From a virus: a stretch of DNA of 58,347 nt. Numbering within the stretch: the stretch's first letter is position 1; every line of letters starts with the position of its first letter. Where the stretch lies: IMG/VR virus record IMGVR_UViG_3300009103_001673, positions 1 through 58,347 of that record; one strand, written 5' to 3'. The notes beneath the pieces are model-generated. The model was given only the letters and a program-made list of their open reading frames with translations, searched no databases and was not told the origin of the DNA. Position numbers and translations under genes: made by a program. Positions 3,409-41,717 of the stretch are shown in pieces.

Positions 3409-4291
3409 CCGAAAACCTGTCTCTGGACCTTGGGGCGGTGGAAACAAGACAGTAAACTCTTTGGTAAATAGGCTTCATGATAATGTTGTCTTCGACTTAG
3501 AGGATGATGTTGACATTATATTTTGTGTAGACCCAAGACCAAATGAAGATGGATTATGGTATCAGGACTTTTTAGATCATAAATCAAAATTTGGATCTAA
3601 AATAATTCAACGAGTTGGTGATGTGGGTACACACGGAAAACCAGAGCTAACTGATCTTGTAAAACAAAGTATTCATTATTCCGACCTTTGTGTTTTTCCA
3701 AGCCAATGGGCATTTGAGTATGTTAATGCTTCAACAAATTCTATAGTTATTCCTAATGGACCGCTTTCTGATTTTTATCAGTTTCGGAATCAAAGTTTAA
3801 AAATATCTAAACCTATACGGGTCGTTACTCATCATTGGTCTGATAACGACAAAAAAGGATTTGATATTTATAGTTCTTTTAAAGATTTTGTTGATGAAGA
3901 TTTTTATTTTACATATATCGGAAGATATTCAAATAAGTATTCTAAAGATGGTATTGATTTTATTGAACCAATAGATACAGAATCATTAAAATCAATTCTT
4001 CCAGAACACGATGTATATTTGACAGCCTCTCAAGAAGAAGCTGGGGCCAATCATGTACTGGAAGCTATGGCGAGTGGGCTTCCTGTGGTTTATAGATCCG
4101 GTGGTGGAAGTATTGATGAGTATTGTTCGGATGAGTTTGGATGTGTATCATATGAAGGACTTGGGGATTTGTCCACTATTTTGAATGCTGTTGTTGATAA
4201 TTATGAACTATATAAAAACAAAGTTTTAAATTATCAAAGAACTAACGAAGATTTGGTTGATGAATATCTGGAGGTTATTGGGAATGTATAA
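3392..4291 (+). CDS. Glycosyltransferase family 4 (GT-B)
   Basis: A 299-residue protein opening with a glycine-rich loop (PVSGPWGGGNK, residues ~9-19) typical of the GT4 acceptor domain. The C-terminal donor-binding signature is clear: DVYLTASQEEAGANHVLEAMASGLPVV, i.e. the E-x7-E motif followed by A-x-G-x-P-V (residues ~205-232). It overlaps the previous gene by 17 bases, indicating coupled translation. The product should transfer a hexose-type sugar to a lipid-linked or protein-linked glycan in the cytoplasm. The exact sugar cannot be read from the sequence. Confidence 0.85.
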   Translation: MKIYFNRKPVSGPWGGGNKTVNSLVNRLHDNVVFDLEDDVDIIFCVDPRPNEDGLWYQDFLDHKSKFGSKIIQRVGDVGTHGKPELTDLVKQSIHYSDLCVFPSQWAFEYVNASTNSIVIPNGPLSDFYQFRNQSLKISKPIRVVTHHWSDNDKKGFDIYSSFKDFVDEDFYFTYIGRYSNKYSKDGIDFIEPIDTESLKSILPEHDVYLTASQEEAGANHVLEAMASGLPVVYRSGGGSIDEYCSDEFGCVSYEGLGDLSTILNAVVDNYELYKNKVLNYQRTNEDLVDEYLEVIGNV

Positions 4292-4997
4292 AGTCAATAT
4301 AAGCATTGATGATATCACACCACACCCACATTCATCTATAGCAGTTTTGGATAGATGTTTTGAGTTGATTGATATTTTTCCAGATATTAAGTTTACGTTA
4401 TTTATTCCTATTGCGTATTATAGAACAATTCCGAGTCCTTCACGATCCGTTTGTGAAGATCCCATGTATATTGATTTGTTTCCAGATTTTTGTGAAAGGC
4501 TTTTAGAATTATCTGATAATAATTTTGAGTTAGGTTATCATGGATTATATCATGGGATATCGGGAGAGACAAATAACGATGAATTTCGTTCCTTGAGTTA
4601 TAATGAGACGTATGAAAAATTTAAAGAGATGTTTGATGTTTGTGAAAACGCCGGGATTATCAATAAGATGAAGCCAATCTTTAGGCCGCCTGCATGGAAA
4701 ATGTCTCCTGAGTCTATCCATGCGTTGCGGGATTGTGGTATTAATATTTTTGCATTACATTCTTCTTCTGAATATATGAACATATATAAAAGTGAACAAA
4801 AGAAAAAAAATGATGTTGTGTATGCAACTTGTTATCCCCCACACGAAAAACTTAAACTGACCAATAAAACCGAAATTGTGTATCATGCGTGTGATTGGGA
4901 TAGAAATTATTTGAGTGAAGATTTGTGTGTATCTTTGGAAGAATTTTTAAATTCTTCTGATAATTATGAATTTTGTTTTATGAAGCAAATGTTATAG
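4284..4997 (+). CDS. Polysaccharide deacetylase / NodB-like or DUF2334-like protein
   Basis: Starting from the ATG at 4284 (GGAGG at 4270-4274, nine bases upstream) the protein has 237 residues. The N-terminus reads NISIDDITPHP, which places an Asp-Asp pair where NodB-type deacetylases keep their first catalytic/metal aspartates. ELGYHGLYHG (residues ~82-91) supplies the two metal-binding histidines, and FRPPAWKMS matches the R-x-P-x-W/P substrate motif. The fold would hydrolyse N- or O-acetyl groups from a sugar. A more upstream start (4257) has no better ribosome site. Within a sugar operon it probably tailors an amino-sugar. Confidence 0.7.
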   Translation: MYKVNISIDDITPHPHSSIAVLDRCFELIDIFPDIKFTLFIPIAYYRTIPSPSRSVCEDPMYIDLFPDFCERLLELSDNNFELGYHGLYHGISGETNNDEFRSLSYNETYEKFKEMFDVCENAGIINKMKPIFRPPAWKMSPESIHALRDCGINIFALHSSSEYMNIYKSEQKKKNDVVYATCYPPHEKLKLTNKTEIVYHACDWDRNYLSEDLCVSLEEFLNSSDNYEFCFMKQML

Positions 4998-6481: not shown

Positions 6482-7074
6482 TGTCTGATTTAGAAACAGA
6501 TCGGTATTATAAGCTTGAGACACATGTAGATGAAATACTTTTAGATTCTTATAGAGATGCTCAGATAAAAAGACACTCCATAAAATCTCAAAAGACAAGA
6601 GATGCATCTTATTATGAAAAAATTTCTGAAAAAATTATATCAAATACAGATTCTGTATACGAGATGATTTGTTTAGGTACAAGAAATAACCATGAACGAG
6701 AATGCTTTAGAGATTTTTTGAATAATGAGTTCGTGTATTCTTTAGATATTGCCGAAGACTCTGGCAGTGATTATATTTGCGATTTTAATTTCTTGCCCGA
6801 TCATTGGTCGGATAAGTGGGATGTTTTGTTTTCAAATTCTATTGATCATGCGATAAGTGCGACAGATGTATTTTTTGAGTGGATTCGTGTTGTAAAGCCG
6901 AATGGTATTTTAGTGATTGGTTTTGATTTAACTACAACAGGTGTGGTTGAATCGGATTGCAATACCTTTACAAAAGATTCGGTCAATTCGTTTTTTGTTG
7001 ACCAGTCTGACCTTGTTGAAATTGTTGATGTTATTGAATGTGGCTATTATCATGTTATAGCAAGGAAGTTGTAA
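6481..7074 (+). CDS. Class I methyltransferase-like protein
   Basis: A 197-residue protein. Motif I is represented by MICLGTRNNHER, the acidic strand-2 end by VYSLDIAEDSG, motif IV by WDVLFSNSIDHA, and motif V by VVKPNGILVIGFDL, a standard Methyltransf_11 tail (xLKPGGxLxI). The Asn-rich loop replacing the usual GCGTG is unusual but recurs in phage and capsule-locus methyltransferases. It starts in a TAATG overlap with its upstream neighbour. Its function is probably glycan-precursor methylation; the substrate is unknown. Confidence 0.6.
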   Translation: MSDLETDRYYKLETHVDEILLDSYRDAQIKRHSIKSQKTRDASYYEKISEKIISNTDSVYEMICLGTRNNHERECFRDFLNNEFVYSLDIAEDSGSDYICDFNFLPDHWSDKWDVLFSNSIDHAISATDVFFEWIRVVKPNGILVIGFDLTTTGVVESDCNTFTKDSVNSFFVDQSDLVEIVDVIECGYYHVIARKL

Positions 7075-7076
7075 TT

Positions 7077-8192
7077 ATGAAATATGATGTTGTTTTGTAT
7101 TTTGCTGGCGTCGAGCATTCTCATGTCCACAAGTATTTAAGTTTACATAAGAAGTTATCCAGTAAGTGTAAATCGCTTTTATTAATCTCTAATACTAGGT
7201 GGGGAATATCTAATGATAGCTTGGTGTCGAACTATGGTCAGCATTTAGATGATGATATTATTTCGGTTAATGATGATGAAGCAGTTTCCATATTAAAAAG
7301 CTATCAGTATCGTTTGGGTGTATTTTCTTCTTCTTTTAGAAAACATAATTTTGGTAGTATAAACAATCGCGATATATTAGCATCAAAATCAAGGGGCATT
7401 AAAACGATTCAAATTTGTGAAATGCCTGTTATGGATTTTTATTACGCAGGTGCTGATATTGTTAGTTTGGTTTCTCCGCATTTTATTGGATTGTCTGATA
7501 GGCTTTTTTCTTGTAGTAATGTAATATTTTCTAATGCTTTATTGTGGGATGATATAGACACATGCTTACCTTATAAACTGACAAAGAATGAATTTTTAGA
7601 TAAATATGATTTAGTTGATGATAAGCCTATAATTCTTTGGTGTCCAAGCTCTGCTCATTCTCATGTTGACCCAAGATTTGGGAAAAGGCAACAGGATGTT
7701 TATAGGCACGTTTGCAGCTTAGATAATGTTTTAATTAAATTACATCCAAATGAATTTCGTAGACATAAAACTGAAAGACTCAATAATAAATGGACATATG
7801 ATTTATATGCAGAAAATCCTGTTAGGGTTTTAGAACAGATAGATACCCATTGGGCAATGAAGTATTTAGATTATGTTGTTGCGTATCAAACAAGTCTTGG
7901 GATGCATTCAGCACTATATAGAAAGCCTTCTATTTATGTTAATGTAGATGAGAAAAATCTTTTGTTTGCGCCGGGAGTCCAAGGATGTGGTCTTGAATTA
8001 TGGGGGGATAAATTCATATGGGCAGGCACAAGTTGTAAATTAGAAGAATTGCAAGATGTTGTAAATTCTGGTTTTTCGTTGTCAGACGATCAGTATGATG
8101 AACATTTAAGCAAATTGTTATATAACAAAGACCGAACTGCGATAAATATAATGTCGGACCAATTTTTGGAAATTATTAAAAATGAAACTTGA
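7077..8192 (+). CDS. GT-B / CDP-glycerol glycerophosphotransferase-like protein
   Basis: With the ATG at 7077 (AAGGAAG ten bases upstream) the protein has 371 residues. The C-terminal half has PIILWCPSSAH, VLIKLHPNEFRR, and later DYVVAYQTSLGMHSALYRKPSIYVN, the order seen in TagF/CDP-glycerol glycerophosphotransferases and related capsule transferases (KxHP motif, then D-S/T-S-x-x-x-E/H-A-x-x-x-x-K-P). These enzymes transfer polyol-phosphate or sugar units to surface polymers. The canonical E is replaced by H in the second motif. The assignment is to a fold group, not a specific reaction. Confidence 0.55.
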   Translation: MKYDVVLYFAGVEHSHVHKYLSLHKKLSSKCKSLLLISNTRWGISNDSLVSNYGQHLDDDIISVNDDEAVSILKSYQYRLGVFSSSFRKHNFGSINNRDILASKSRGIKTIQICEMPVMDFYYAGADIVSLVSPHFIGLSDRLFSCSNVIFSNALLWDDIDTCLPYKLTKNEFLDKYDLVDDKPIILWCPSSAHSHVDPRFGKRQQDVYRHVCSLDNVLIKLHPNEFRRHKTERLNNKWTYDLYAENPVRVLEQIDTHWAMKYLDYVVAYQTSLGMHSALYRKPSIYVNVDEKNLLFAPGVQGCGLELWGDKFIWAGTSCKLEELQDVVNSGFSLSDDQYDEHLSKLLYNKDRTAINIMSDQFLEIIKNET

Positions 8193-9828
8193 TGATATAA
8201 AAATTACATTTATCAATATGCCTCTTAGAGAAACTGCTTCTCCTAATGTTCCGCCAGAGGGACCAGCTATACTTGCATCTATAGTTCGACAATATGGTGG
8301 AGAACCTTCTATTGTTGATTTAAATGCGTATCGAATTAAGGATGACTTAGCAAAAAAACGTGGATTACAAAACGGAAGACACCTTACATATGACGAAACC
8401 AGAGATTTAATTCGCCAGCATCTAAACAATGTTGGAGATCAAGATGTAATTGCATTTTCTGGAAAGATTACCACATTGCGTTGGCAAGAAGAGATTGTAA
8501 AAATTGTACGAGAAGAACAGCCGGATTCTTTTTTGGTTACTGGGAATGGCTTGGCAACGGAAATTAATCGTGGTTTATTTAATTGGATTCCTGAGTTGGA
8601 TGCAATTGGTCGATCAGAAGGTGATGACATTATTATTAATATATGTCAAGACGCAAAAATAATTAGAGACATGGGATGGTCGAAGGCAATTAAGTCTGGA
8701 AAACTTAGTGAGTTTTTTATTGATGATATTAATGGCAGACCAAGATTTGTTTATGAGGGTGATCGACCAAAAGATTTAGATTCTATTCCATATGCTGCAT
8801 GGGATCTTTTGGAATCTGATCCATATGGACATAATGTTTTAGAGGATTATATTAAAGTTCCTGTTTGGGGAACTGAAGCAAATAATAGTTCTGCAACTCC
8901 ATTTAGAATGAAAAGGAGTTTAACAACAGTTAGTAGTCGTGGTTGTCCATATGCCTGTGCTTTTTGTTATCGCGGATCACAGGGAGAGCGAAATTATGGA
9001 ATGCGCTCACCAGAACATTTGGCAATACAGATTAGAAGATATGTCAACGATTATGATTTAGATTTTATTGGATTTCCTGATGATAATTTTGCAGTAGATA
9101 AAAAACGAATTGCAAAAATGTCTGATGTTTTTGATGCTTGGGGTATTGGCCATGTTCGTTGGGGCACTCATACTCGAATGGATGAAGCAGATGATCGGTT
9201 TATAGATATGGCAAAATCTGGTTGTGTGTATGTTGGGTTTGGTGCAGAATCCGCTGATGAGCATACTTTAACTTTGATGAACAAAGGCGGATTTATTCTT
9301 AGGAATGGAATGACACCAACAAAAATAAATGGTAGTTTATATAATTTTCCTAACACAATGATGAATGCTGTAAGGAATTGTAGAGATACAAATATACATG
9401 GAAATTGTACATGGATTATGGGGTATCCCGGTGAGGAACTAAAGCACCTAAAAACAAGTGTGGCATTCATTAAATGGCAACAGGAGTTTTGGACAAATGG
9501 CTTGGTTGCGGGGACGGAAGAATATCAAAATGCGTATGATTCTGTAAATAGGAGAATGTTCACTGCCACAGCATATCCGGGTACAGAGATGTGGAGGGTG
9601 GTTAAGGATAAACTGACAGAATATTATGATATATCATTTGATAAATACCTGCAACCGATTTGTGATGATAAATTTCATGCTTACGTTTTGGAATTGGATG
9701 ATGCGACAAAGGTATTGAATGATAAAAATGGCAATCCAATTAACTTTGGAAACATGCCTATGGATGATTTTCTACAAGCTAGAGAATATGTAAACTCAGA
9801 CCAGATTGAAAAGATATTGGAGATGTGA
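8182..9828 (+). CDS. B12-binding-type radical SAM protein
   Basis: A 548-residue protein. The N-terminus (residues ~1-150) resembles a cobalamin-binding domain (PPEGPAILASIVRQYGG, then a Rossmann-like VIAFSGK...FLVTGNG), though the DxHxxG cobalamin motif is absent. The radical SAM core holds CPYACAFC (C-x3-C-x2-C, residues ~254-261), which ligates the 4Fe-4S cluster, followed by FIGFPDDNF and YVGFGAESAD, typical of the class B family. Such enzymes perform radical methylation or rearrangement of unreactive carbons. It overlaps the upstream gene by 11 bases. Among sugar genes, C-methylation or another sugar modification is the likely role. Confidence 0.85.
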   Translation: MKLDDIKITFINMPLRETASPNVPPEGPAILASIVRQYGGEPSIVDLNAYRIKDDLAKKRGLQNGRHLTYDETRDLIRQHLNNVGDQDVIAFSGKITTLRWQEEIVKIVREEQPDSFLVTGNGLATEINRGLFNWIPELDAIGRSEGDDIIINICQDAKIIRDMGWSKAIKSGKLSEFFIDDINGRPRFVYEGDRPKDLDSIPYAAWDLLESDPYGHNVLEDYIKVPVWGTEANNSSATPFRMKRSLTTVSSRGCPYACAFCYRGSQGERNYGMRSPEHLAIQIRRYVNDYDLDFIGFPDDNFAVDKKRIAKMSDVFDAWGIGHVRWGTHTRMDEADDRFIDMAKSGCVYVGFGAESADEHTLTLMNKGGFILRNGMTPTKINGSLYNFPNTMMNAVRNCRDTNIHGNCTWIMGYPGEELKHLKTSVAFIKWQQEFWTNGLVAGTEEYQNAYDSVNRRMFTATAYPGTEMWRVVKDKLTEYYDISFDKYLQPICDDKFHAYVLELDDATKVLNDKNGNPINFGNMPMDDFLQAREYVNSDQIEKILEM

Positions 9829-9829
9829 G

Positions 9830-10813
9830 ATGAATTTTGTTTTGCTTGAGATGACGTTTTTACGGTATTTTGCTCCGCTTATTATTGAAGGCAATCGGAG
9901 GGGTATTAAATCTAAAATTTATGTGGGGTGGAGAACTTTTGATAAGTATAATAGTCCATATAAGCATGAGGAATACTTTAGGCAGTTTTCAGAAAAATAT
10001 GATGTTGATCTTATAGATATTTCTAAGTGGTCTAGTAACGATGGAAAAATTACGTTTTTCATTGAGGGTGTTGGTTTACATAATGGTCCCAATATCAGAA
10101 AAACAAATCCAGATCAACTTTTTGTTTCTATCACTTCTATGGCAGATTATGAAGCATTATATTCAAGGTATGTAAACCTGTGTGATTATGTGTGTTTCCC
10201 AAGTAGAACATTTGCTGATGAGTTTGGTTTGCATAACGATAAAAATTTATACTTAGGTAGTCCAAAATATGATTGTCTGGATGATTTATCACAAGTTGAT
10301 TATCTTGGAGATTCTAAAGTGGCTTTAGTTATGTACCCGTCACCGCTTAGGGTTCCTTTTATTAATATGCATAATATCTTAAATCTTTTGAAAAAAAATA
10401 ATTTTGAAATTTGGATGAAAGCTAGAGCTAAAAATCCTGTCAATGATGCGAATTTACATGGAGATAGGTATTTTGTAGAAGAGTCTTGGTATCCACACTA
10501 TACCTTGGATTTAATTAATCAGTGTGATTTGGTTGTTAATATAGACTCGTCTACGATAAAAGAAAGCACAATTTTAGAAAAACCCATGTTGAATTTTAAT
10601 GTCAAAAAGGTAAAACGAGTTTATGATTTTCTTTTTGATTGTGATCATTGTGTAGATTTAGATTCAAATTCTGATGATCAGGCGATAGACAGTTCTATTG
10701 AACTTTTACTTAATACTGATTATAAAAAATCATATAGAGATGCAAAAGAAAAATATTTATGGACGGGTAATGCATCTAAAACTATTTTAAACCATTTTAA
10801 TATTGGAGTTTAG
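9830..10813 (+). CDS. GT-B-like protein, possible glycosyl- or glycerophosphotransferase
   Basis: A 327-residue protein from the ATG at 9830 (TTGGAG 7 bases upstream, one base after the preceding stop). The segment CDLVVNIDSSTIKESTILEKPMLNFN (given here only as its key pattern: D-xx-V-x-I-x-S-S-T-x-x-E-xx-x-xx-K-P) matches the donor-site signature shared by UDP-GlcNAc 2-epimerase-fold and capsule transferases. The N-terminus begins with a hydrophobic strand and LRYFAPLI. Since a NeuB pathway normally needs a 2-epimerase (NeuC), the resemblance is notable, but the catalytic residues of NeuC were not recognised. Confidence 0.45.
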   Translation: MNFVLLEMTFLRYFAPLIIEGNRRGIKSKIYVGWRTFDKYNSPYKHEEYFRQFSEKYDVDLIDISKWSSNDGKITFFIEGVGLHNGPNIRKTNPDQLFVSITSMADYEALYSRYVNLCDYVCFPSRTFADEFGLHNDKNLYLGSPKYDCLDDLSQVDYLGDSKVALVMYPSPLRVPFINMHNILNLLKKNNFEIWMKARAKNPVNDANLHGDRYFVEESWYPHYTLDLINQCDLVVNIDSSTIKESTILEKPMLNFNVKKVKRVYDFLFDCDHCVDLDSNSDDQAIDSSIELLLNTDYKKSYRDAKEKYLWTGNASKTILNHFNIGV

Positions 10814-10815
10814 AC

Positions 10816-11478
10816 ATGCTTGACAATGTTAGTAGTATTATAATTCCGGCGAGAGAGGGATCTAAGGGGATTAAGCATAAGAATAGATTTCTTTTAAATT
10901 TTACTCTAGACGAATTACTTAAAGACGTTTTATCTAAAGTTATTGTTTCTACAGATGATAACGCGATTAAGGAAAAGGTTCTCAGACATAGCGATATGAT
11001 TCGGGTTCATAGTAGAAGTTTTGAAAGCTCTACTGATGGTGCGCCAGTTAGTCATTGTGTTAAAGAGGTTTTGGATTATTATAGCCCAGATCCTAAAAGC
11101 GATGTTATGGTCTTATATCTAACTTATCCAGAAAGGACGTATTCTGATATTGTTCAGATATATGAATGGTATATAAAAAATAATTTTAAATCTTTGTTGT
11201 GTAGAGGTGATATTGATCCACACGCCCATCCCTATCTTTGTTTTATCGACAATGAGGATGGTACTGGGGTTCCTTTAATCAACCACAACCTCTATAGAAG
11301 GCAAGAGTATCCTAAATGTTTTCATGTATCTCATTTTATTTCGATGTTTCGGGTTTCTGAATTTGATAGACTGAATCATCAACTATATAATACGGAGACT
11401 GGGTTTTACGCTTTGGATAAAAAGTCTGATATTGATACTCATGATGATTTGAGGCAATTTTTAAAGGAAGCAAACTAA
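10816..11478 (+). CDS. neuA: NeuA-like CMP-nonulosonate (acylneuraminate) cytidylyltransferase
   Basis: A 220-residue protein with the diagnostic CMP-Neu5Ac synthetase N-terminus IIPAREGSKGIKHKN (residues ~9-23), which binds CTP, then VIVSTDDNAIKE and YLTYPERT in place of the usual LLQPTSP, and ALDKKSDIDTHDD near the C-terminus matching the ID(S/T)xxD metal site. The enzyme couples a nine-carbon keto-acid sugar to CMP. It is directly followed by a NeuB-like gene with a TAATG overlap, so synthesis and activation are co-expressed. Lengths of cellular homologues are similar (about 220-240). Which nonulosonic acid it prefers is unknown. Confidence 0.85.
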   Translation: MLDNVSSIIIPAREGSKGIKHKNRFLLNFTLDELLKDVLSKVIVSTDDNAIKEKVLRHSDMIRVHSRSFESSTDGAPVSHCVKEVLDYYSPDPKSDVMVLYLTYPERTYSDIVQIYEWYIKNNFKSLLCRGDIDPHAHPYLCFIDNEDGTGVPLINHNLYRRQEYPKCFHVSHFISMFRVSEFDRLNHQLYNTETGFYALDKKSDIDTHDDLRQFLKEAN

Positions 11479-12323
11479 TGATAGATTTTGGTGAATTGTA
11501 TTTAATTGGTGAAATTGGCATTAACCATAATGGGGATTTGCAAATTGCAAAAAAGTTAATTGATGCCTCATTTGCATGTGATTGGGATTGTGTAAAGTTT
11601 CAAAAGAGAAATCCCGATGTATGTGTCCCTGACCACCAAAAGGATGTTTTAAGACAAACTCCTTGGGGTGAAATGACATACCTTGAGTATAAGTATAGAG
11701 TTGAGTTTGGTGAGAATGAATATGACTATATTGACTCATACTGCAAAGAAAAACAAATTGATTGGACCGTTTCTGTTTGGGATTTGGATAGTTTGGAATT
11801 TATGTCTAGATACAAGGTTCCGTTTATAAAGATCCCTTCTGCAATGCTAACTAATGATGCTTTAATTCAGGCGACAGCAGATACAGGAAATCCGATAATT
11901 TTAAGCACAGGAATGAGTACATTAGAGGAAGTTGACCACGCAGTATCTTTATTGTCAGATAGAAATTTTAATGACTATGCTATACTACATTGTAATTCTA
12001 CATATCCTGCACCAATAGCAGATTTAAATCTTAATAATATTAAGATGTTTTCTGATAGATATAATGTCCCGGTTGGGTATTCTGGTCATGAGAGTAATGT
12101 AATCCCTTCTGTTATTGCACATACACTTGGAGCAAATATTATTGAACGACATATTACGCTTAATCATAATATGTGGGGAACGGATCAAAAGACTTCGTTA
12201 GAAGTTCATGCGATGAATATGTTAAAAGCTCGTTGTGATGATGCTCGTTTGGTTCTTGGTTCTTATGAAAGAGTTCTTTGTGGAAGTGAATTAGAAGTTA
12301 GAAAGAAATTAAGAGGAAATTAA
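11478..12323 (+). CDS. neuB: NeuB-like nonulosonate (sialic/legionaminic) synthase, no SAF domain
   Basis: A 281-residue TIM-barrel protein. It has EIGINHNGD (residues ~11-19), VKFQKRNP, IKIPSAML, ILSTGMST, HCNSTYPAP, PVGYSGHE and ERHITLNHNMWGTDQ, the full ordered set of NeuB motifs that bind PEP, the metal (histidines) and the N-acyl-mannosamine-type substrate. Cellular NeuB proteins are about 340-350 residues because of a C-terminal antifreeze/SAF domain; this one stops after the barrel (RKKLRG). SAF normally contributes to the neighbouring active site in the dimer, so its absence is functionally notable. Start overlaps the neuA stop. Confidence 0.9.
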   Translation: MIDFGELYLIGEIGINHNGDLQIAKKLIDASFACDWDCVKFQKRNPDVCVPDHQKDVLRQTPWGEMTYLEYKYRVEFGENEYDYIDSYCKEKQIDWTVSVWDLDSLEFMSRYKVPFIKIPSAMLTNDALIQATADTGNPIILSTGMSTLEEVDHAVSLLSDRNFNDYAILHCNSTYPAPIADLNLNNIKMFSDRYNVPVGYSGHESNVIPSVIAHTLGANIIERHITLNHNMWGTDQKTSLEVHAMNMLKARCDDARLVLGSYERVLCGSELEVRKKLRGN

Positions 12324-12326
12324 ATT

Positions 12327-13031
12327 ATGAAAACAATACACATTGTAGATAAGCTGAGAGAGTTGGATTTTGAGTTGGAAGATTTGACTTTGGGTGATTT
12401 TGATATTATTGGCGAAGCCTGTGCCAAAAAACAACGCAGCAAAGATTCTGATTTATATAAATCTGTGGGCGCATTCTTTAGACCAAATTATGAAAGAGGT
12501 CTTTTGATTTATTCTATAATATTAACTTATGATATTCAGTCGTTCTTAGAAATCGGATTTGGTCGGGGTTATGGAACTCTTTGTGCTGCGATGGCAATGT
12601 ATGAAAATGGTGGAGGCACTATTACTACAATTGATCCTAATTTTGATCAAACTCATATTAATCGACTAAAACAATCCTTTCCAAAAGATTGGTTTGATAT
12701 GATAAATTTTGTTTCTGGGTTTTCTCAAAATTATCTGTTTGAGAATGACGATAAATTTGATTTCATTTATATTGATGGCGATCATCGTTATGATGCAGTA
12801 AAGCGAGATTGGCAGCTTTGCGAAAAGCGTTACAACAAACTTCTTTTGTTTGACGATTACAATCCAGTTTCAGAAACTCAAGCGACTGATATAGAATGTT
12901 ACAAATTGATTGACGAAATTGAAGATGATTCCAAAGAATTGATCATAATGGACCGTAGAATATTTTTTGATGATCGTAGATACGCAGATGATGAAATTAA
13001 GTACGGTCAAGTCTTGTTAACAACTGGGTAG
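12327..13031 (+). CDS. Class I SAM methyltransferase (Methyltransf_24 type)
   Basis: A 234-residue protein with a canonical glycine loop SFLEIGFGRGYGT (residues ~71-83), a following acidic residue in ITTIDPNFDQ, and DFIYIDGDHRYDAVKRDW (residues ~146-163), the hallmark of Methyltransf_24 and related catechol/sugar methyltransferases in which Asp and His bind the metal. LLLFDDYNP completes the motif set. It begins three bases after neuB and is probably in the same transcript. Metal-dependent O-methylation of a sugar hydroxyl is plausible. The best-formed methyltransferase in the cluster. Confidence 0.8.
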   Translation: MKTIHIVDKLRELDFELEDLTLGDFDIIGEACAKKQRSKDSDLYKSVGAFFRPNYERGLLIYSIILTYDIQSFLEIGFGRGYGTLCAAMAMYENGGGTITTIDPNFDQTHINRLKQSFPKDWFDMINFVSGFSQNYLFENDDKFDFIYIDGDHRYDAVKRDWQLCEKRYNKLLLFDDYNPVSETQATDIECYKLIDEIEDDSKELIIMDRRIFFDDRRYADDEIKYGQVLLTTG

Positions 13032-13036
13032 AATAA

Positions 13037-13954
13037 TTGATGATGAAATTATATCTAAATGCACCAAATGAGAATTGGATATTGGATCGGTATAAAACCG
13101 AGTGGAATACATATAATTCAGAATATTCTACTACAGATATATCTTCGGCTGATATTATTTGGTTGCTTGATTCGTATACATGGAACAGAATTGACCCGTT
13201 CCTATTAGAAAATAAAATAGTGGTAAGTACAATTACGCACATTGCTCCAGAGAAGTTCGATTATGAATCATTTAACCGCAAAGATAAATTTGTAAATTAC
13301 TATCACGCGATGTGTAGTCGTAGTGGTGAGGATGTAAGAAAGATAACAGACAAACCTGTTACTTCTTTGCAGTTTTGGGTTAATGATCAACTTTGGAATG
13401 AGGCGACAGATGATGTTTCTGTATTAAGGCGAAGATATAAATTACCCCAAAAGAAGGTTTTGGTTGGATCTTTTCAAAGAGATACAGAAGGACATGATCT
13501 TGTTTCTCCAAAATTAGTAAAGGGTCCAGATTTGTTTTGTGATTATATGGAACATATGAAGGCAATTATTGGAAATAATTTGGAAGTTGTGCTTGCTGGT
13601 TGGAGAAGGCAATATGTGATGAAACGTTTAGACGAAGCCGGAATTAAATATCACTATTTTGAAATGTGTGATTTTGAGACTCTTAATGAATTGTATAATT
13701 GTATTGACCTGTATGTGGTATCTTCAAGAATAGAAGGAGGACCGCAGGCAGTGCCAGAATGTGCAATTACACGGACTCCGATTATCTCTACAGATGTAGG
13801 ATTGGCATCAGAAATACTTGCTCCTGAATCTGTCAATGATGATCTCAGTAAAGCCATGCCAAATGTGGATTATGCATATAATAAAGTTCAACAATATAAG
13901 ATAAAATATCATATGAACAAATTTGTTCATTTTTTTGATCAAATCTGTAGTTAA
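13037..13954 (+). CDS. Glycosyltransferase family 4-like (GT-B)
   Basis: A 305-residue protein (a start at 13040 is equally possible). VLVGSFQRDTEG opens the donor domain, VVLAGWRRQYV matches the strand with the conserved phosphate-contacting Arg, and LYVVSSRIEGGPQAVPECAITRTPIISTDVG (key pattern S-R-x-E-G-G-P-x-x-x-x-E-x-x-x-x-x-x-P-I-I) is the GT4 E-x7-E region, residues ~230-260. It is the last gene of the glycan block. Its final codons include a palindrome followed by a T-run that could act as a weak terminator. Confidence 0.8.
   Translation: MMMKLYLNAPNENWILDRYKTEWNTYNSEYSTTDISSADIIWLLDSYTWNRIDPFLLENKIVVSTITHIAPEKFDYESFNRKDKFVNYYHAMCSRSGEDVRKITDKPVTSLQFWVNDQLWNEATDDVSVLRRRYKLPQKKVLVGSFQRDTEGHDLVSPKLVKGPDLFCDYMEHMKAIIGNNLEVVLAGWRRQYVMKRLDEAGIKYHYFEMCDFETLNELYNCIDLYVVSSRIEGGPQAVPECAITRTPIISTDVGLASEILAPESVNDDLSKAMPNVDYAYNKVQQYKIKYHMNKFVHFFDQICS
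13913..13936 (+). terminator. Weak intrinsic-terminator-like palindrome inside gene end
   Basis: An 18-nt perfect palindrome (ATGAACAAATTTGTTCAT, 13913-13930) leads directly into a run of seven T (13930-13936). It lies within the last codons of the glycosyltransferase and before the promoter at 14051. The stem is AT-rich, so it would be weak alone; its position at the end of the glycan block makes a terminator or binding-site role reasonable. Confidence 0.35.
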
Positions 13955-14016
13955 ATATAGCTTGTTATTTTTGAACAAATTTAACGAAGTTGATTATAAT
14001 TATATTGAACTAAGAA

Positions 14017-14050
14017 ATGTTCATCAAGACAAAAAAATGCTCATCAGGTC
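14017..14050 (+). repeat. Pair of 14-nt direct repeats upstream of promoter
   Basis: ATGTTCATCAAGAC (14017-14030) and ATGCTCATCAGGTC (14037-14050) match at 11 of 14 positions. Their spacing start-to-start is 20 bases, about two helical turns, so both would face the same side of the DNA. The second copy abuts the -35 hexamer. This is what an activator or repressor site would look like; no binding protein is identified. Confidence 0.5.
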
Positions 14051-14078
14051 TTGACAAGAAATCTCAGGATGCTATAAT
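14051..14078 (+). promoter_or_regulatory. Sigma70-type promoter
   Basis: A consensus -35 (TTGACA, 14051-14056) and consensus -10 (TATAAT, 14073-14078) are separated by 16 bases, and transcription would begin near 14085. It lies in the 169-base gap between the glycan block and the next gene and points at that gene. Perfect hexamers suggest use by unmodified host RNA polymerase early in infection. Confidence 0.8.
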
Positions 14079-14123
14079 ATGCATACGGTGGAAATTACTA
14101 CCTTTTGAAAGGAATCTTGGTAC

Positions 14124-15275
14124 ATGGCGCGTAAAGCCGCAAAAGCCCTCAAATCCTATGAATTGATGGATTTGGGGAAAGAGCCTGAATGGGATGAACA
14201 ACACGACCTCGAAGACTCGGAGTTGACTTTTCATTTTTCCAGGGCATTAAATTGGTATAATTATAATTATACTTCAAAGCATGGACAGGACTTTCTTGTG
14301 AAATACATGAAGTCTGTAAAGAAACACAAAAAGAATGCCGATGCCGTTTCGGCATTGGAGCCTTGGCAGATTGGTAAACCATATGGTTCGCTTGCCATAA
14401 TGGCTCTGAATGGTCTTGAATTTCCTTCTGTTCTTTCGCAATATAAAGACAGATTTGAATCGAGAATTTCGGAACTTGTTGAGAAGGGAAAGGAAGTTCT
14501 TGCCAAGAAAAAGGTAAAGGTTCTTGCCAAGAAAAAGGCACCTGTCGTTTCTATTCAGGAACGAGTTCGTGCAGTTTCTTCTGAACATCTCGGAAACATT
14601 GAAGGTTTGGTTGACGATTTTGTTGAGAATAATTGCAAAAAGAAGATAAATCTTTACGATTGGCTCCAAAAGTCTGGGGTCAAGGGTGGTCATATGAATC
14701 ATATCATTGACTATTACAAGGAACAGTATGCAGAAATGCAGGAAGTTCTTTTGGGTAAAGATGATGATCTCAATGAGGGTTATGCGTTTTTGTCAAAGCC
14801 CCGCAAGAAGAAGTTGGCATTATTGTATGCCAGCTTTATTGCCGATTCTCAGGAATGGCAGAAGAATTGTCGCGGCAAGCGCAAGGCACGCAAGCGTAAG
14901 GTAAGGACACCGAAAGAGTTGGTAAAGTCTTTTGTCTACAAGAAGGAAGATGAAGACTTTGACCTTGAAAGTGTCAAGCCTGTTGAGATTATCGGAGCAT
15001 CTCAGGTTTGGTTATTTGATACCAAGACTCGGTTCATGTACAAGTATGTTTCGGATGTTGGCATGACTGTCAAGGGAAGCACCATCAAAGACTTTGACCC
15101 GACACAATCATTCAAGAAGAAGGTTCGCGAAATGTATTGCGATGAGGTTCTTGATGATGTTATTGATGGCGGAAAGGTCAAGTTGCGTAAGGCACTTGAT
15201 TCTATCAAGGCAAAGGAGGTTCCTGTGACTGGCCGTGTCGGCAAGGAAATGGTGATTGTGAGGGTGATGAAGTGA
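14124..15275 (+). CDS. Lysine-rich hypothetical protein, probably highly expressed
   Basis: A 383-residue protein that I do not recognise. It has a basic middle (EVLAKKKVKVLAKKK, residues ~127-141, encoded by a 24-nt tandem repeat), a very basic stretch GKRKARKRKVR near residue 252, and a C-terminal region with regular charged helices and LFDTKTRFMYKYV. No signal peptide or membrane segment is visible. It lies behind the strongest promoter in the window and uses AAG for Lys, GAC for Asp and CGC/CGT for Arg more than its neighbours, as gp32 does, which suggests abundant product. The basic character would suit nucleic-acid binding; this is inference. Confidence 0.8.
   Translation: MARKAAKALKSYELMDLGKEPEWDEQHDLEDSELTFHFSRALNWYNYNYTSKHGQDFLVKYMKSVKKHKKNADAVSALEPWQIGKPYGSLAIMALNGLEFPSVLSQYKDRFESRISELVEKGKEVLAKKKVKVLAKKKAPVVSIQERVRAVSSEHLGNIEGLVDDFVENNCKKKINLYDWLQKSGVKGGHMNHIIDYYKEQYAEMQEVLLGKDDDLNEGYAFLSKPRKKKLALLYASFIADSQEWQKNCRGKRKARKRKVRTPKELVKSFVYKKEDEDFDLESVKPVEIIGASQVWLFDTKTRFMYKYVSDVGMTVKGSTIKDFDPTQSFKKKVREMYCDEVLDDVIDGGKVKLRKALDSIKAKEVPVTGRVGKEMVIVRVMK
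14496..14538 (+). repeat. 24-nt tandem repeat inside the Lys-rich gene
   Basis: A 19-nt unit (GTTCTTGCCAAGAAAAAGG) occurs at 14496-14514 and again at 14520-14538, with a period of 24 bases, so it encodes VLAKKK twice in frame. It looks like a small internal duplication by slippage. Confidence 0.8.
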
Positions 15276-36602: not shown

Positions 36603-39600
36603 ATGGGAGTTATTAGAACTGCAAATGGGCATCAGACTTCCCTATTGGTGCGGCAACATGTTCCTGAATTTGTTGTAGCCGACCATCCACAATTTATTAA
36701 TTTCGTCGAAAAGTATTATGAGTTCATGGCAAATAATACTTTGATGGCCACAGCTAATTCTGATGTATATTATTATGGTGCAGATACCGCATCAAAGATT
36801 TTGCAAGATATTATGGATGTTGACAGAACAGATTTTGATCAATTTATAGAGTTCTTCAGAAGACAATATGGATATTCGTTTCCTCAAGACGTATATCCTG
36901 ATGGTAACAGAGCAACTCTTTATAAAAATATGGTTGATTTTTATCGTGCAGTCGGTACAGAAGATTCTTTCAAGATGCTTTTTCGGCTTTTGTATAATGA
37001 AGATATTGAAATTTATTATCCAAGTAAAGATATTTTAATTGCCAGTGGTGGAAAATATAGCAAAGGAACACGAGTCAAGGTAAATTATACTGATAATTTA
37101 AATGCAATTAAAAATAAGATGCTTGTTGGGGTCACATCTGGAGCAACAGCAACCATAGAAAAGGTTGTGGTTCTTCCTAAAGGAAGTGATTCGTTTGTCA
37201 GTGGAAATATAGCAAATGATGATGTGACATTTGCCAGTGGTGTTGGTGTGGACCCCTTTGCAAATTCAGAAATTCATGATACCATGAAATTTGTGGAACA
37301 TGGCACTCAAGTTGCATTCATATATTTGACTGATTCTGTGGGTAAGTTTGATTATTTTGAAGATGTTTATTATACTGAAGGTGGTGCCGCAAATACTTCT
37401 GTTGCATCAAACACAATTATACTTCCGTCTATTAAACAAATTATGATGATTGATAGGTTTAATTATAGAAGCGCAAATTCTATAATTTCGCCTTTTGATG
37501 GAAAAATGGGAAATCGTCGTGCAGATAGCACAAATCCTCCTTGGGGATCAGCAAATCTCATATTTGGTTATTCGGCAAATGGCGGATATCATGGAGATTA
37601 TATCAATTACGGAAATACTGGAATTTGGCATACCACAGGAACCGGGACAGGAGAAATAAAAATAGCAAATATTGTTTTTGGTGCTTCTGGTGGAAGAGTT
37701 TTAGAGATTGGAAATAATAATGTTTCGACAGCAAATGGAGATATGCGACAATTTGTATATTCAAAATTAATGGGAATTCGTGGCGAAGATAATCTTTATC
37801 GGTTGTCAATACGAGCAAGAGATTTGGGCGGAAATTCTTCATATTCTGTTGCAACCGGAAATCGGTTTTCGGCAGGAATTGCATTGTTAGACCATGCTAG
37901 ATATATTCTTGGTGCAGATGGATATGCAGATTCTTATGATGAGGCTTTTTGGTTTGCTTCTCACAAGCAAGCCATAGATGATGAATTTTATATTTATCAA
38001 ACATATTTTAGGGGAAGAGAAAACACGCGGTCAACAGGAAATCCATACTTGGCAACCAATTATGGCAGCGGCGGAAGAACCGACCTTCCAATCAAAGATA
38101 GATATTATAATTCGGCACAAAAAGCACTTGATGGCGAAGTTCGGATGCCATTTAATGCCACATATATTCTCCCGACGTTTAAGGTAAATGAACCTGCAAA
38201 TGGGGCATCTTTTTCTCAGGGAATAACACAGATTGATTTTATCTCTCTTGAAGAGATGACACCAATGCAATCTCAAGAAGGACGTAGAACTGGTTTTTAT
38301 ACAGACGATTCAAGTTTACTTTCTAGTTCTTCTCATTTGTATGACGGTCATTATTGGCAATGGCACGCATATGATATTAAATCAAAGCAACAATTAAAGG
38401 ATTATGCTACAGTTGTCCGTGAGTCGGCGCATCCTGCTGGAATGAAAATGTTTGGAACAATGATTTCTGAAAGTTCTGCAAATGGTGCAATTGAATCAAT
38501 CGAAAATAACTTATCAGACACCTTCTCTCCAGACCAATTAAATTCTCTTGCAGGATGGTGGAAGGCAGATGCCATTGGTCCGAAAAATATTGAATGGCGT
38601 AAATGGTCTGCCGATACCACTTCCAATGGAGATTTTGGAACCATCAAAAACAGAATACCTGCTGGTGCCACCGATGGGTTGTCTAAATTTGAACCCAGTA
38701 CCCTTGATTATCTTGAGAATTATAAAGATCAGACCGTCAGATGTTTGCTTTCTTTTGAAGCCGACAGTTCTCCGATAGGCGGAAGTCAAATTGCAAGGGT
38801 TACTGATTGGCATACGTCAGCTGGCCCAAGTGTAACTTTTAATGGGGGACCACAATCGGGGATTACCACAACCCAGGACACAGATCAATTTTATACAAAT
38901 TATCATTGGCCAATGGTAATAGAACCACATAAAAAGTGGTTGTTTAGTACATATGCAAGAACCAGTAATATTATAACAGATGGCTCTGCCGACAGACACA
39001 TAGTCAGAGCAGGATTTCAAATTTCTAACACTTCAGGGCATTTATATAGTCCTATCTCACAAGGATCTTATAGCGAAGCTGCCGATGCCGAAAATACATG
39101 GAAAAGGGTGTCATCTCTGATTGATGCGTCTGCACGACCGGAAACAAGAGTTGCATTACATCTTACTCTTCCAGACAGAACAAAATGGGCAGATCTTGGT
39201 TTGGCAACAGGAAATACTACCACAGATTTTGATGGTTTTATGATTGAAGAATATATTCCAGAACTTCATGGAACCAGCGCACCATATACACCATCTCCTT
39301 TTGTTGTCCCTGGAATGGGCGGGTCAAATGTACACACATGGCGAGATTATAGCCCAAACAAACATCATCTTCATGTAAATACTCATGGCGGAATTTTTCA
39401 TCATCCACAGTGGATTGCCAATGCAGTTGGCGGAATGCCTGCCGTTCGTTTTTCGGCAAATACAGTAAAGAATAATGCCAATGTGTATCCATTTAGTTCC
39501 ATTGGCGGAACAGTAAATTCGATTGCACTGAGTCTTGGAGATTCAACGGCATTTATTCCTCCGACTTCTGGTTTTCAATCAAGTCCAGTTTCAAATTCAG

Positions 39601-41717
39601 AGTATGGGGTGTTGGGTGGAACTCTGGCCAATCCTGCTCTGCCAATACCAGTTTCAAATACATGGACAATCATGGCAGTCGTCAAAACAAATCTTGGAGT
39701 CAATGCAACATCCTATGACACCACACTGAACCCGACTATTTTCAATTCTGGTTATGCCGGAAATAGAGATTCAATTGCTCATGTTCCCAACAATTCGAGA
39801 GGAAGTATGCATCTCGGATATGATGTTGTCGGAGATGTTGGTGCATTGGAAACCACTATTCCTGTAAATACATATCAGGTCATTCAAGCCAACACTGTTG
39901 CAATAACAACTTTTGCTCCTCATTCTTCTGCAAACACAGAGAGTTCATTTAGAATTGTTGGCGTGTCAGTAAATGCTGCATCTGGTGCCGGGTTTGGCGA
40001 TCTTCTCAATTTCCACATAGACGGAAGAAGATTTTCAAATTCAGAAGTGAACAATTCACGATCAGATTTGAGTCTTGCCGCATTCGATTGGAGATCGCAA
40101 AACAACTTTGTGACTTCAATTGGGAAGTGGAAGCCCACACGAAAGGCATTTTTTCCGTTTCCTGTATATCCAGAAGCCAATGGAATCATGGGAGTCGGAG
40201 CAACAGGGAATTTAGTATTCTTTGTGAATTGTTCCAATACAAATATTCTTCCGACACAAACAGAATTTGGGCCACTGGGTGATGTGCAGCTATTTAATTC
40301 AGGAGGTGTTGATTTTGTTGCTCCTCATACTTCAACCGGAAACAATACAGTAAATGGTTCGGTTATTCCTCTTGCGGCTGTATCAGGAGTTGGATCATCA
40401 GGAGATTTGAACTTTGGTATTCCATATGGAGACAGCAGTTTATCAATATTTACACCATATGAAGGTATCACACAGGTATCTCAAGTGGTAGGAACTGGAA
40501 ACACCGATGCCTATCTTATGTATTCACACACAAATGCTGTTGCAAGATTTGGTATAGCCGAAGGAGAAGTCAGCACTTCGGCATTTGGAACTCATAAACA
40601 TATTATTCCAGTTGAATGGGATTCTGCAAATAATTCATGGTATGCCATATATAACGCGACCATCAAGACACCTGCTCCTTATACTGGTACGATAGGCGTA
40701 CCATTTGTTCCTGATGCAGCCAATGGAGATTTTATTGTTGCCAGATTGAGAAAAACTATTGGACTTTATGGAATCACTGATTTTGAATCTTTTGTGTTTG
40801 CAGCTAATTCTGAAAATCAGTCGTATACCGCAGGAGGAGAGCCTGGAAATTCTTTTGTTATTGCTGGTCTTAGTGAGTTCCGTAATGCAAAGAGAGAAGA
40901 AAAAGTTTTGTCAGAAAGAGCCTATTTGTCCAACACATATAATGATATCATAACAGGAACCGCAGATTGGGATGGAGATATTGCCGAGGTTCTTGTATTC
41001 AACGAAAAACTTTCAAATACAAATATTGCTTTGGTGGAAGGATATCTTGCACACAAATATAGTCTTCGGGAAAACCTGAAGCACAAGGATGACGACGGAA
41101 ATGGTGGCCCAGAAGTCGAGGCATACCGATGGGAGTTTGCAAATACACATGATGGTTGGGATTTCTATGTTGCAAATACTATGGACGGATATACACACTT
41201 GCGACATGCCGAAATTGAGTATGGGACTAGTGGGTCGTCCATCCCAGAATATGTATGGACCGCAGGTGATGCAAATAATTATTTGCATATAGCCAGTCCA
41301 GATTTTGATGGATTTGGTTCTATTGTCATGGTTCAAAACACAACAACACAAATTGATGCATCTGCATATGATAAATTTGCTGTTCGTTTTCGGACGTGGG
41401 GCCCGGCGCGGGCAGATGAAGGTCGAGGTTATTTGACATGGACAAATACAGATGGCATAACAGGCAATTCAGATGCAATAACTACAAGTCAATATGGTAG
41501 TGGATGGCAAGAAGACCATATACATGATCTTTCTGGAGAAGCAGATTGGACTGGAAAAATAACAAGTCTCAAATATACCTTTGATTATGATGAATCTGGG
41601 GGAACAAGATATTATATTGACTATGCATATATCTCAGGAAACAATCATCCTCATCCATATCGTTGGAATGCTCCTCCTGCCATTGGCGCAAACAACAGTT
41701 GGCATGTCAACTACTAA
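36603..41717 (+). CDS. 7: gp7-like baseplate wedge protein with large LamG/CBM-like insertions
   Basis: A 1704-residue protein; T4 gp7 has 1032. Residues ~1-200 carry the wedge part: VRQHVPEFVVADHPQFINFVEKYYEFM, then MVDFYRAVGTEDSFKMLFRLLYNEDIEIYYPS (key R-x-x-G-T-x-x-S-x-x-x-L-F-R-x-L-F/Y). Residues ~260-520 look like a beta-sandwich. Around 641 begins LAGWWKA, at ~904 VHTWRDYSPNKH, and at ~1457 GDIAEVLVFNEKL followed by EGYLAHKYSL, the usual start, middle and end of LamG/concanavalin-like domains; the last ~150 residues resemble another carbohydrate-binding jelly roll. Likely decorates the baseplate with glycan binders. Confidence 0.8.
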   Translation: MGVIRTANGHQTSLLVRQHVPEFVVADHPQFINFVEKYYEFMANNTLMATANSDVYYYGADTASKILQDIMDVDRTDFDQFIEFFRRQYGYSFPQDVYPDGNRATLYKNMVDFYRAVGTEDSFKMLFRLLYNEDIEIYYPSKDILIASGGKYSKGTRVKVNYTDNLNAIKNKMLVGVTSGATATIEKVVVLPKGSDSFVSGNIANDDVTFASGVGVDPFANSEIHDTMKFVEHGTQVAFIYLTDSVGKFDYFEDVYYTEGGAANTSVASNTIILPSIKQIMMIDRFNYRSANSIISPFDGKMGNRRADSTNPPWGSANLIFGYSANGGYHGDYINYGNTGIWHTTGTGTGEIKIANIVFGASGGRVLEIGNNNVSTANGDMRQFVYSKLMGIRGEDNLYRLSIRARDLGGNSSYSVATGNRFSAGIALLDHARYILGADGYADSYDEAFWFASHKQAIDDEFYIYQTYFRGRENTRSTGNPYLATNYGSGGRTDLPIKDRYYNSAQKALDGEVRMPFNATYILPTFKVNEPANGASFSQGITQIDFISLEEMTPMQSQEGRRTGFYTDDSSLLSSSSHLYDGHYWQWHAYDIKSKQQLKDYATVVRESAHPAGMKMFGTMISESSANGAIESIENNLSDTFSPDQLNSLAGWWKADAIGPKNIEWRKWSADTTSNGDFGTIKNRIPAGATDGLSKFEPSTLDYLENYKDQTVRCLLSFEADSSPIGGSQIARVTDWHTSAGPSVTFNGGPQSGITTTQDTDQFYTNYHWPMVIEPHKKWLFSTYARTSNIITDGSADRHIVRAGFQISNTSGHLYSPISQGSYSEAADAENTWKRVSSLIDASARPETRVALHLTLPDRTKWADLGLATGNTTTDFDGFMIEEYIPELHGTSAPYTPSPFVVPGMGGSNVHTWRDYSPNKHHLHVNTHGGIFHHPQWIANAVGGMPAVRFSANTVKNNANVYPFSSIGGTVNSIALSLGDSTAFIPPTSGFQSSPVSNSEYGVLGGTLANPALPIPVSNTWTIMAVVKTNLGVNATSYDTTLNPTIFNSGYAGNRDSIAHVPNNSRGSMHLGYDVVGDVGALETTIPVNTYQVIQANTVAITTFAPHSSANTESSFRIVGVSVNAASGAGFGDLLNFHIDGRRFSNSEVNNSRSDLSLAAFDWRSQNNFVTSIGKWKPTRKAFFPFPVYPEANGIMGVGATGNLVFFVNCSNTNILPTQTEFGPLGDVQLFNSGGVDFVAPHTSTGNNTVNGSVIPLAAVSGVGSSGDLNFGIPYGDSSLSIFTPYEGITQVSQVVGTGNTDAYLMYSHTNAVARFGIAEGEVSTSAFGTHKHIIPVEWDSANNSWYAIYNATIKTPAPYTGTIGVPFVPDAANGDFIVARLRKTIGLYGITDFESFVFAANSENQSYTAGGEPGNSFVIAGLSEFRNAKREEKVLSERAYLSNTYNDIITGTADWDGDIAEVLVFNEKLSNTNIALVEGYLAHKYSLRENLKHKDDDGNGGPEVEAYRWEFANTHDGWDFYVANTMDGYTHLRHAEIEYGTSGSSIPEYVWTAGDANNYLHIASPDFDGFGSIVMVQNTTTQIDASAYDKFAVRFRTWGPARADEGRGYLTWTNTDGITGNSDAITTSQYGSGWQEDHIHDLSGEADWTGKITSLKYTFDYDESGGTRYYIDYAYISGNNHPHPYRWNAPPAIGANNSWHVNY

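Follow-up and report, generated by a model that had tools for sequence, protein, structure and literature searches.

The gene at positions 8182-9828 of the window, by which we mean the whole 58,347-nucleotide stretch analysed here, encodes a radical SAM protein whose predicted structure has the class B (cobalamin-type) fold, with putative use of cobalamin. The protein belongs to a previously unnamed and uncharacterised family of this known B12-type fold, and its most likely role is the tailoring of a nonulosonic acid (a sialic-acid-like sugar), or of a precursor, made by the phage. The family is under purifying selection and is almost always accompanied by genes for a NeuB-type nonulosonate synthase and a CMP-sugar cytidylyltransferase.

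The window, a viral record of 58 kb, belongs to a T4-like marine phage. Its baseplate wedge protein (gp6) is closest to that of Pelagibacter phage HTVC008M, at 37% identity; the two phages are only distantly related. The contig probably represents part of a larger phage genome. Sugar, glycosyltransferase and methyltransferase genes make up an island in the first 14 kb. The first-pass annotation had placed the radical SAM gene in a sugar operon, which agrees with the synthase and cytidylyltransferase found nearby within this island:

7038-8192 (start at 7038 or 7077 uncertain), + strand: glycosyltransferase-like protein, directly upstream of the radical SAM gene (weak match; BFO_1060 family, E 0.015)
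8182-9828, + strand: B12-type radical SAM protein, 548 aa (Pfam Radical_SAM, AlphaFold model, PDB folds)
9827-10813, + strand: glycosyltransferase/epimerase-like protein, between the radical SAM and cytidylyltransferase genes (weak match; Pfam Epimerase_2 19.8 bits, below cut-off)
10816-11478, + strand: CMP-sugar (nonulosonate) cytidylyltransferase (PseF-like, E 2.7e-10; CTP_transf_3 32.1 bits, cut-off 22.6)
11478-12323, + strand: NeuB-type nonulosonate synthase, 281 aa, short form without the C-terminal SAF domain (Pfam NeuB 236.3 bits; NeuB_NnaB 230.9 bits, below the equivalog cut-off of 399.65)
12327-13031, + strand: SAM-dependent methyltransferase (Methyltransf_24, 59.5 bits, over cut-off)
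13037-13954, + strand: glycosyltransferase (phrog_2170, E 1e-6)

As the NeuB-type synthase and the cytidylyltransferase lie in one gene run, the window qualifies as carrying a CMP-nonulosonate cassette. Genes for precursor enzymes (phosphatase, SDR, aminotransferase) are absent from this run and present in many relatives. The island also encodes a DUF2334 (polysaccharide-deacetylase-like) protein at 4281-4997 (43 bits, cut-off 26). Elsewhere in the window, a 1704-residue ORF at 36603-41717 lies in the tail/baseplate region, and its long middle part may, on the impression of reading only, carry lectin-like domains.

Conservation and distribution of the family

The ORF at 8182-9828 (+ strand) begins with ATG and overlaps the upstream ORF by 11 nt. 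It is a genuine, conserved gene: homologues with 63-74% identity in many independent viral contigs, the dN/dS ratios and the high model confidence together rule out a chance ORF, and the homologues and dN/dS likewise dispose of a frameshifted one. The dN/dS values were 0.04-0.08 in five informative close pairs, one near-identical pair being left out of this range as uninformative, and show that the family is under strong constraint.

Besides the window, the family has members in one Opitutia MAG, in a few Patescibacteria genomes and in ~25 IMG/VR contigs. About 22 of the contigs carry relatives at the 63-74% level, and more distant copies occur in the phage loci L021, L038/L042 and L071. Among bacteria, the Opitutia copy has 70% identity and the Patescibacteria copies 44-57%. 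The family was present in 3 of 380 genomes of the phylum of Patescibacteria genome L030 and in 3 of 247 genomes of its order, L030 itself being included in each count, while no second member was found among 286 genomes of the Opitutia MAG's class. Among isolated phages, only Streptomyces phage SF3 matched, weakly and over the radical SAM part (25.9%).

In the phylogenetic tree, the family and the closest of the phage radical SAM proteins tested are separated by a very long branch, and a second phage group (L021, L042, L071) falls among the Patescibacteria copies. The Opitutia copy branches within the clade of T4-like phages, which makes transfer from a phage likely; in this MAG (L029:5965-8423), the phage-type radical SAM gene and a cytidylyltransferase gene are flanked by ordinary bacterial genes. 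Near one Patescibacteria copy (L053:12103-14767), four KdsC-type HAD phosphatase genes lie within 3 kb.

Fold, cluster motif and the cobalamin face

The following parts of the protein were delimited:

8182-8631, + strand: N-terminal Rossmann (cobalamin-type) domain, residues ~1-150 (DSSP on the model; sub-threshold B12-binding; profile match to the TokK domain)
8716-8757, + strand: beta-hairpin after strand 5, residues 179-192 (model strands 179-183 and 186-192)
8917-9471, + strand: radical SAM barrel core, residues ~246-430 (Pfam Radical_SAM at residues 251-429; model)
8944-8967, + strand: CPYACAFC, a CX3CX(aromatic)C [4Fe-4S] motif, residues 255-262 (sequence, family alignment)
9475-9825, + strand: C-terminal helical part with LDDATK at residues 505-510 (family alignment, model)

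The Pfam Radical_SAM profile matched at 60.9 bits (cut-off 29.5). The CPYACAFC motif noted in the first-pass annotation is present, and its three cysteines (CX3CXFC) are invariant in all 29 family members; LDDATK is an invariant or near-invariant signature of the family. Searching with a B12-binding profile, as that annotation had proposed, gave a mixed outcome. The window protein reached 16.8 bits at residues 86-150, below the cut-off of 32.1, whereas 25 of the 29 members matched at E <= 0.1 (best 3.1e-8) and one Patescibacteria copy passed the cut-off with 34.5 bits.

NCBIfam matches were mostly to B12-type radical SAM families, none above 74 bits against cut-offs of several hundred. The best full-protein score was to BchE (73.7 bits), and the cut-offs of PhpK, Sden_1168, BchE, HpnJ, KedN5, HpnR and TIGR04295 (400-700 bits) were all missed. 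Membership in the AprD4, PhpK, BchE and HpnJ families is ruled out by these cut-offs. MiaB, RimO and similar tRNA-modifying families were absent from the Pfam and NCBIfam matches, which rules out a role in tRNA modification, the kind of unrelated family that the first-pass annotation had named as counter-evidence.

We used the AlphaFold model built with 29 family sequences (pLDDT 89.6, pTM 0.89) and not one built with 8 close sequences (pLDDT 55). It consists of a Rossmann domain of five parallel strands with helices (strands 7-12, 41-46, 89-93, 117-121 and 141-144 by DSSP), the hairpin at 179-192 and then the radical SAM barrel. Confidence is low only at residues 255-270, in the loop binding the iron-sulphur cluster; the cluster itself is not part of the model. 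In a Foldseek search of the PDB, the 15 best chains (E 1.5e-13 to 5.4e-10) were OxsB, AprD4, CysS, TsrM, TokK and MgmA, with OxsB giving the best E-value; lipoyl synthase formed the next group after the B12-type radical SAM enzymes (E 5e-6). The earlier assignment to the B12-type, or class B, enzymes is thus supported by the modelled Rossmann domain and hairpin and by the best PDB matches, all of which are of this type.

Class 1 cobalamin radical SAM enzymes have a beta-hairpin after strand 5 and bind cobalamin base-off, without a histidine (review PMC13331322). The MetH-type histidine motif DxHxxG is indeed missing from the window protein, as had been reported, but its absence is not unusual: base-off/His-off binding of cobalamin is seen in OxsB, TsrM and TokK (PMC13331322); the same literature rules out that the missing motif marks a degenerate protein. 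In these enzymes, the lower-face loop after strand 3 carries Asn186 (OxsB), Arg69 (TsrM) or Trp76 (TokK) (PMC13331322). The corresponding stretch of the phage protein is SGKITTLRWQ, in which Thr97 is invariant in 29 of 29 members and aligned with TokK Trp76; judging from the alignment, the residue below the cobalt would be Lys, Met or Ile at position 95 (as OxsB Asn186) or Thr97 (as TokK Trp76). After strand 4, nearly all members have [ST]G[NG]GLATE, and OxsB likewise has GN here. In the Rossmann domain, nearly every invariant residue is found in one of the loops following strands 1-5, on the side where TokK and OxsB bind cobalamin. This pattern fits a bound cofactor or substrate and stops short of proof of cobalamin.

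Linkage to NeuB and cytidylyltransferase genes, and the proposed role

A cytidylyltransferase homologue was found near the radical SAM gene in all 25 intact phage loci (the window included) and NeuB in 24 of them, several of these loci being near-duplicates, so that they represent ~20 lineages. The lone locus without NeuB, L071, ends ~5 kb downstream. The cytidylyltransferase gene directly adjoins the radical SAM gene in most loci, usually as the next gene. Bacterial loci contained NeuB in 5 of 9 cases and the cytidylyltransferase in 7 of 9. Also often found nearby are a small HAD-like protein, DUF115/MptE-like (Maf-like) proteins, SDRs and aminotransferases of three classes; Maf enzymes transfer nonulosonates onto proteins (PMC11339370).

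For a control group, we collected 80 phage NeuB loci regardless of radical SAM genes; the family occurred in 6 of them and another radical SAM protein in 6 more. The statement in the first-pass annotation that radical SAM enzymes are rare in phage operons is therefore only partly right, given these loci, the ~25 other viral contigs with the family and the cassettes described for pelagimyophages (PMC7029224). Compared with 46 full-length NeuB loci lacking any radical SAM gene, loci with the family were enriched in the cytidylyltransferase (21/21 versus 15/46, Fisher p 7e-8), DUF115 proteins (14/21 versus 4/46, Fisher p 2e-6) and SDR genes (14/21 versus 11/46, p 0.001). These statistics count related phages as independent, and the p-values are indicative only, because the loci of one group were centred on another gene than those of the other, and part of the seeds derived from radical SAM loci. 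The linkage is one-sided: the radical SAM gene occurs with NeuB, and NeuB occurs without the radical SAM gene, which is the pattern of a tailoring enzyme.

It is improbable, in our estimate, that the protein is a glycan-island enzyme with some other target, be it a lipid, a protein side chain or a different sugar, and is linked to NeuB through co-transfer only. The islands are large and mosaic, and the relatedness of the phage sequences makes the counts non-independent, which would suit such an explanation. Against it, the linkage is retained in Patescibacteria and in distant phages whose genes are ordered differently (L021, L042), and NeuB loci without the radical SAM gene usually lack a linked cytidylyltransferase. 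Tailoring of a CMP-nonulosonate is the most likely role because of the cytidylyltransferase in 25 of 25 loci and NeuB in 24 of 25, set against the 15 of 46 loci with a cytidylyltransferase where the radical SAM gene is missing.

Several cassettes have unusual members. In L092:5218-6618, L102:5959-7380 and L123:8391-9794, another B12-type radical SAM family (466-473 aa) lies among the same cassette genes, near cytidylyltransferase, SDR, aminotransferase and NeuB genes; the L123 protein, the one tested, matched B12-binding in full (59.9 bits). In L026, the cassette with the family member contains, a few genes further downstream (12824-14818), another B12-type radical SAM gene, which is KedN5/TokK-like (266 bits to NF033712, cut-off 700). 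NeuB is fused to a sugar-isomerase-like TIM barrel in L024:12279-14186 (635 aa); in L042 (12328-14207), the two parts are encoded by separate, adjacent genes.

In the pathway that we infer, NeuB would condense a host- or phage-supplied sugar with phosphoenolpyruvate, and the cytidylyltransferase would form the CMP-sugar. The radical SAM enzyme would probably act on this sugar or a precursor, its 5'-deoxyadenosyl radical taking a hydrogen off an unactivated carbon and so altering that carbon. Glycosyltransferases (DUF115/Maf-like in many relatives) may then accept the modified CMP-sugar and decorate virion proteins or the host envelope. In L042, a head protein gene adjoins the DUF115, cytidylyltransferase and radical SAM genes, and this location of the cassette within a head-gene run suggests virion glycosylation there; in the T4-like islands, the glycan could be destined for the virion or the host surface. 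DUF115-like, cytidylyltransferase and radical SAM genes lie in an apparent virion structural gene run in L042:3815-14207, L021 and L071, with NeuB also present in L042 and L021.

The leading candidate for the carbon change is cobalamin-dependent C-methylation, a guess that we put at somewhat under even. Methylation from methylcobalamin is the commonest outcome for the B12-type radical SAM fold and needs no partner, which would suit loci containing only NeuB, cytidylyltransferase and radical SAM genes. The unusual sugar carbon chemistry proposed in the first-pass annotation thus agrees with the most likely role, here narrowed to the nonulosonate (NeuB/CMP-transferase) pathway, and its example of C-methylation stands as a candidate only. 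It seems to us rather unlikely that the enzyme, still using cobalamin, does something other than methylate the nonulosonate or its precursor; oxidation as by BchE, ring contraction as by OxsB, epimerisation and carbon-carbon bond formation are examples. Such reactions are known for cobalamin radical SAM enzymes (PMC13331322, PMC13142503), and the top profile (BchE) and top fold E-value (OxsB) both belong to enzymes of this kind, but every profile score is far below its family cut-off, and the sequence therefore points to none of these reactions in particular.

Cobalamin itself can be questioned from the bacterial carriers. In the seven Patescibacteria genomes with the gene, which may be incomplete, no BtuC-type transporter scored over the cut-off, and in five of the seven the radical SAM protein was the sole B12-binding-domain match. 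This genome content speaks against a need for cobalamin, whereas the conserved loops speak for it. Cobalamin importers other than the BtuC type exist.

AprD4 is not known to require cobalamin. The lack of a BtuC-type permease over the cut-off and the few B12-binding proteins in the Patescibacteria carriers are why we keep, although as an unlikely reading, a dehydration like that of AprD4, by a radical SAM diol dehydratase with a B12-type fold working without cobalamin in the same nonulosonate pathway. Its product would be a deoxy-keto sugar, then reduced by an SDR or aminated by an aminotransferase; in pathway this is a sub-case of nonulosonate tailoring, and in chemistry a rival to methylation. 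AprD4 (6fd2) is the second-best fold match (TM-score 0.58 by query and 0.69 by target, the highest by target), and radical SAM loci are enriched in SDR genes and often contain aminotransferases. However, the protein scores 37.2 bits against the AprD4 family NF033070 (cut-off 500), several loci, including the window, have no SDR or aminotransferase nearby, and the loops of the cobalamin face are invariant, not degenerate. AprD4, which dehydrates a sugar diol, works with the reductase AprD3 (PMC5461906); an obligate SDR partner of this sort is unsupported here, as several loci lack an SDR.

A bolder combination seems to us quite unlikely as a whole, namely that a new family common to marine phages and ultra-small Patescibacteria carries out cobalamin-free radical chemistry on a CMP-nonulosonate despite its B12-type fold, making an undescribed nonulosonic acid that is attached to phage head or tail proteins.

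We found no radical SAM enzyme of nonulosonic acid biosynthesis in the open-licence literature. If the enzyme does act on nonulosonates, this would be a new kind of chemistry for the sialic-acid family of sugars and would explain the recurrence of radical SAM genes in marine phage surface-glycan islands. It would also provide a small, defined cassette (NeuB, CMP-transferase and radical SAM enzyme) testable in E. coli. Because Patescibacteria whose genomes show little sign of B12 metabolism also carry the enzyme, the extent to which a B12-type fold depends on B12 can be tested directly.

Comparison with known systems

The family resembles OxsB, TsrM, TokK and CysS in its domain order (five-stranded Rossmann domain and beta-hairpin, then the barrel), in the CX3CX(aromatic)C motif and in lacking the DxHxxG histidine (PMC13331322). 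It differs from them in sharing only ~13-15% identity, in its C-terminal part, in being phage-borne in a nonulosonate cassette and in that cobalamin binding is putative here. With AprD4 it shares the best TM-score by target, a sugar substrate on the AprD4 side and SDR genes that recall the AprD4 reductase partner, but the profile score is low, the SDR is not always present and the cobalamin-face loops are conserved in the phage family. The P-methyltransferases PhpK and Sden_1168, as well as BchE and HpnJ, are among the best NCBIfam scores (51-74 bits), though far below cut-offs of 480-600 bits, and no phosphonate, tetrapyrrole or hopanoid genes were seen in the radical SAM cassette.

Pelagimyophages carry radical SAM cassettes in their host-recognition island, mentioned in passages that name no family, pathway or function for them (PMC7029224). 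These are also T4-like marine phages with a sugar island and radical SAM genes, which may or may not be of the window's family. In Acinetobacter prophages, EpaA/EpaB convert pseudaminic acid to 8-epipseudaminic acid, as demonstrated by NMR (PMC12053666). That system has no radical SAM enzyme and works on a host-made nonulosonate, but the likeness lies in phage genes that alter a nonulosonate carbon and thereby change a surface glycan (PMC12053666).
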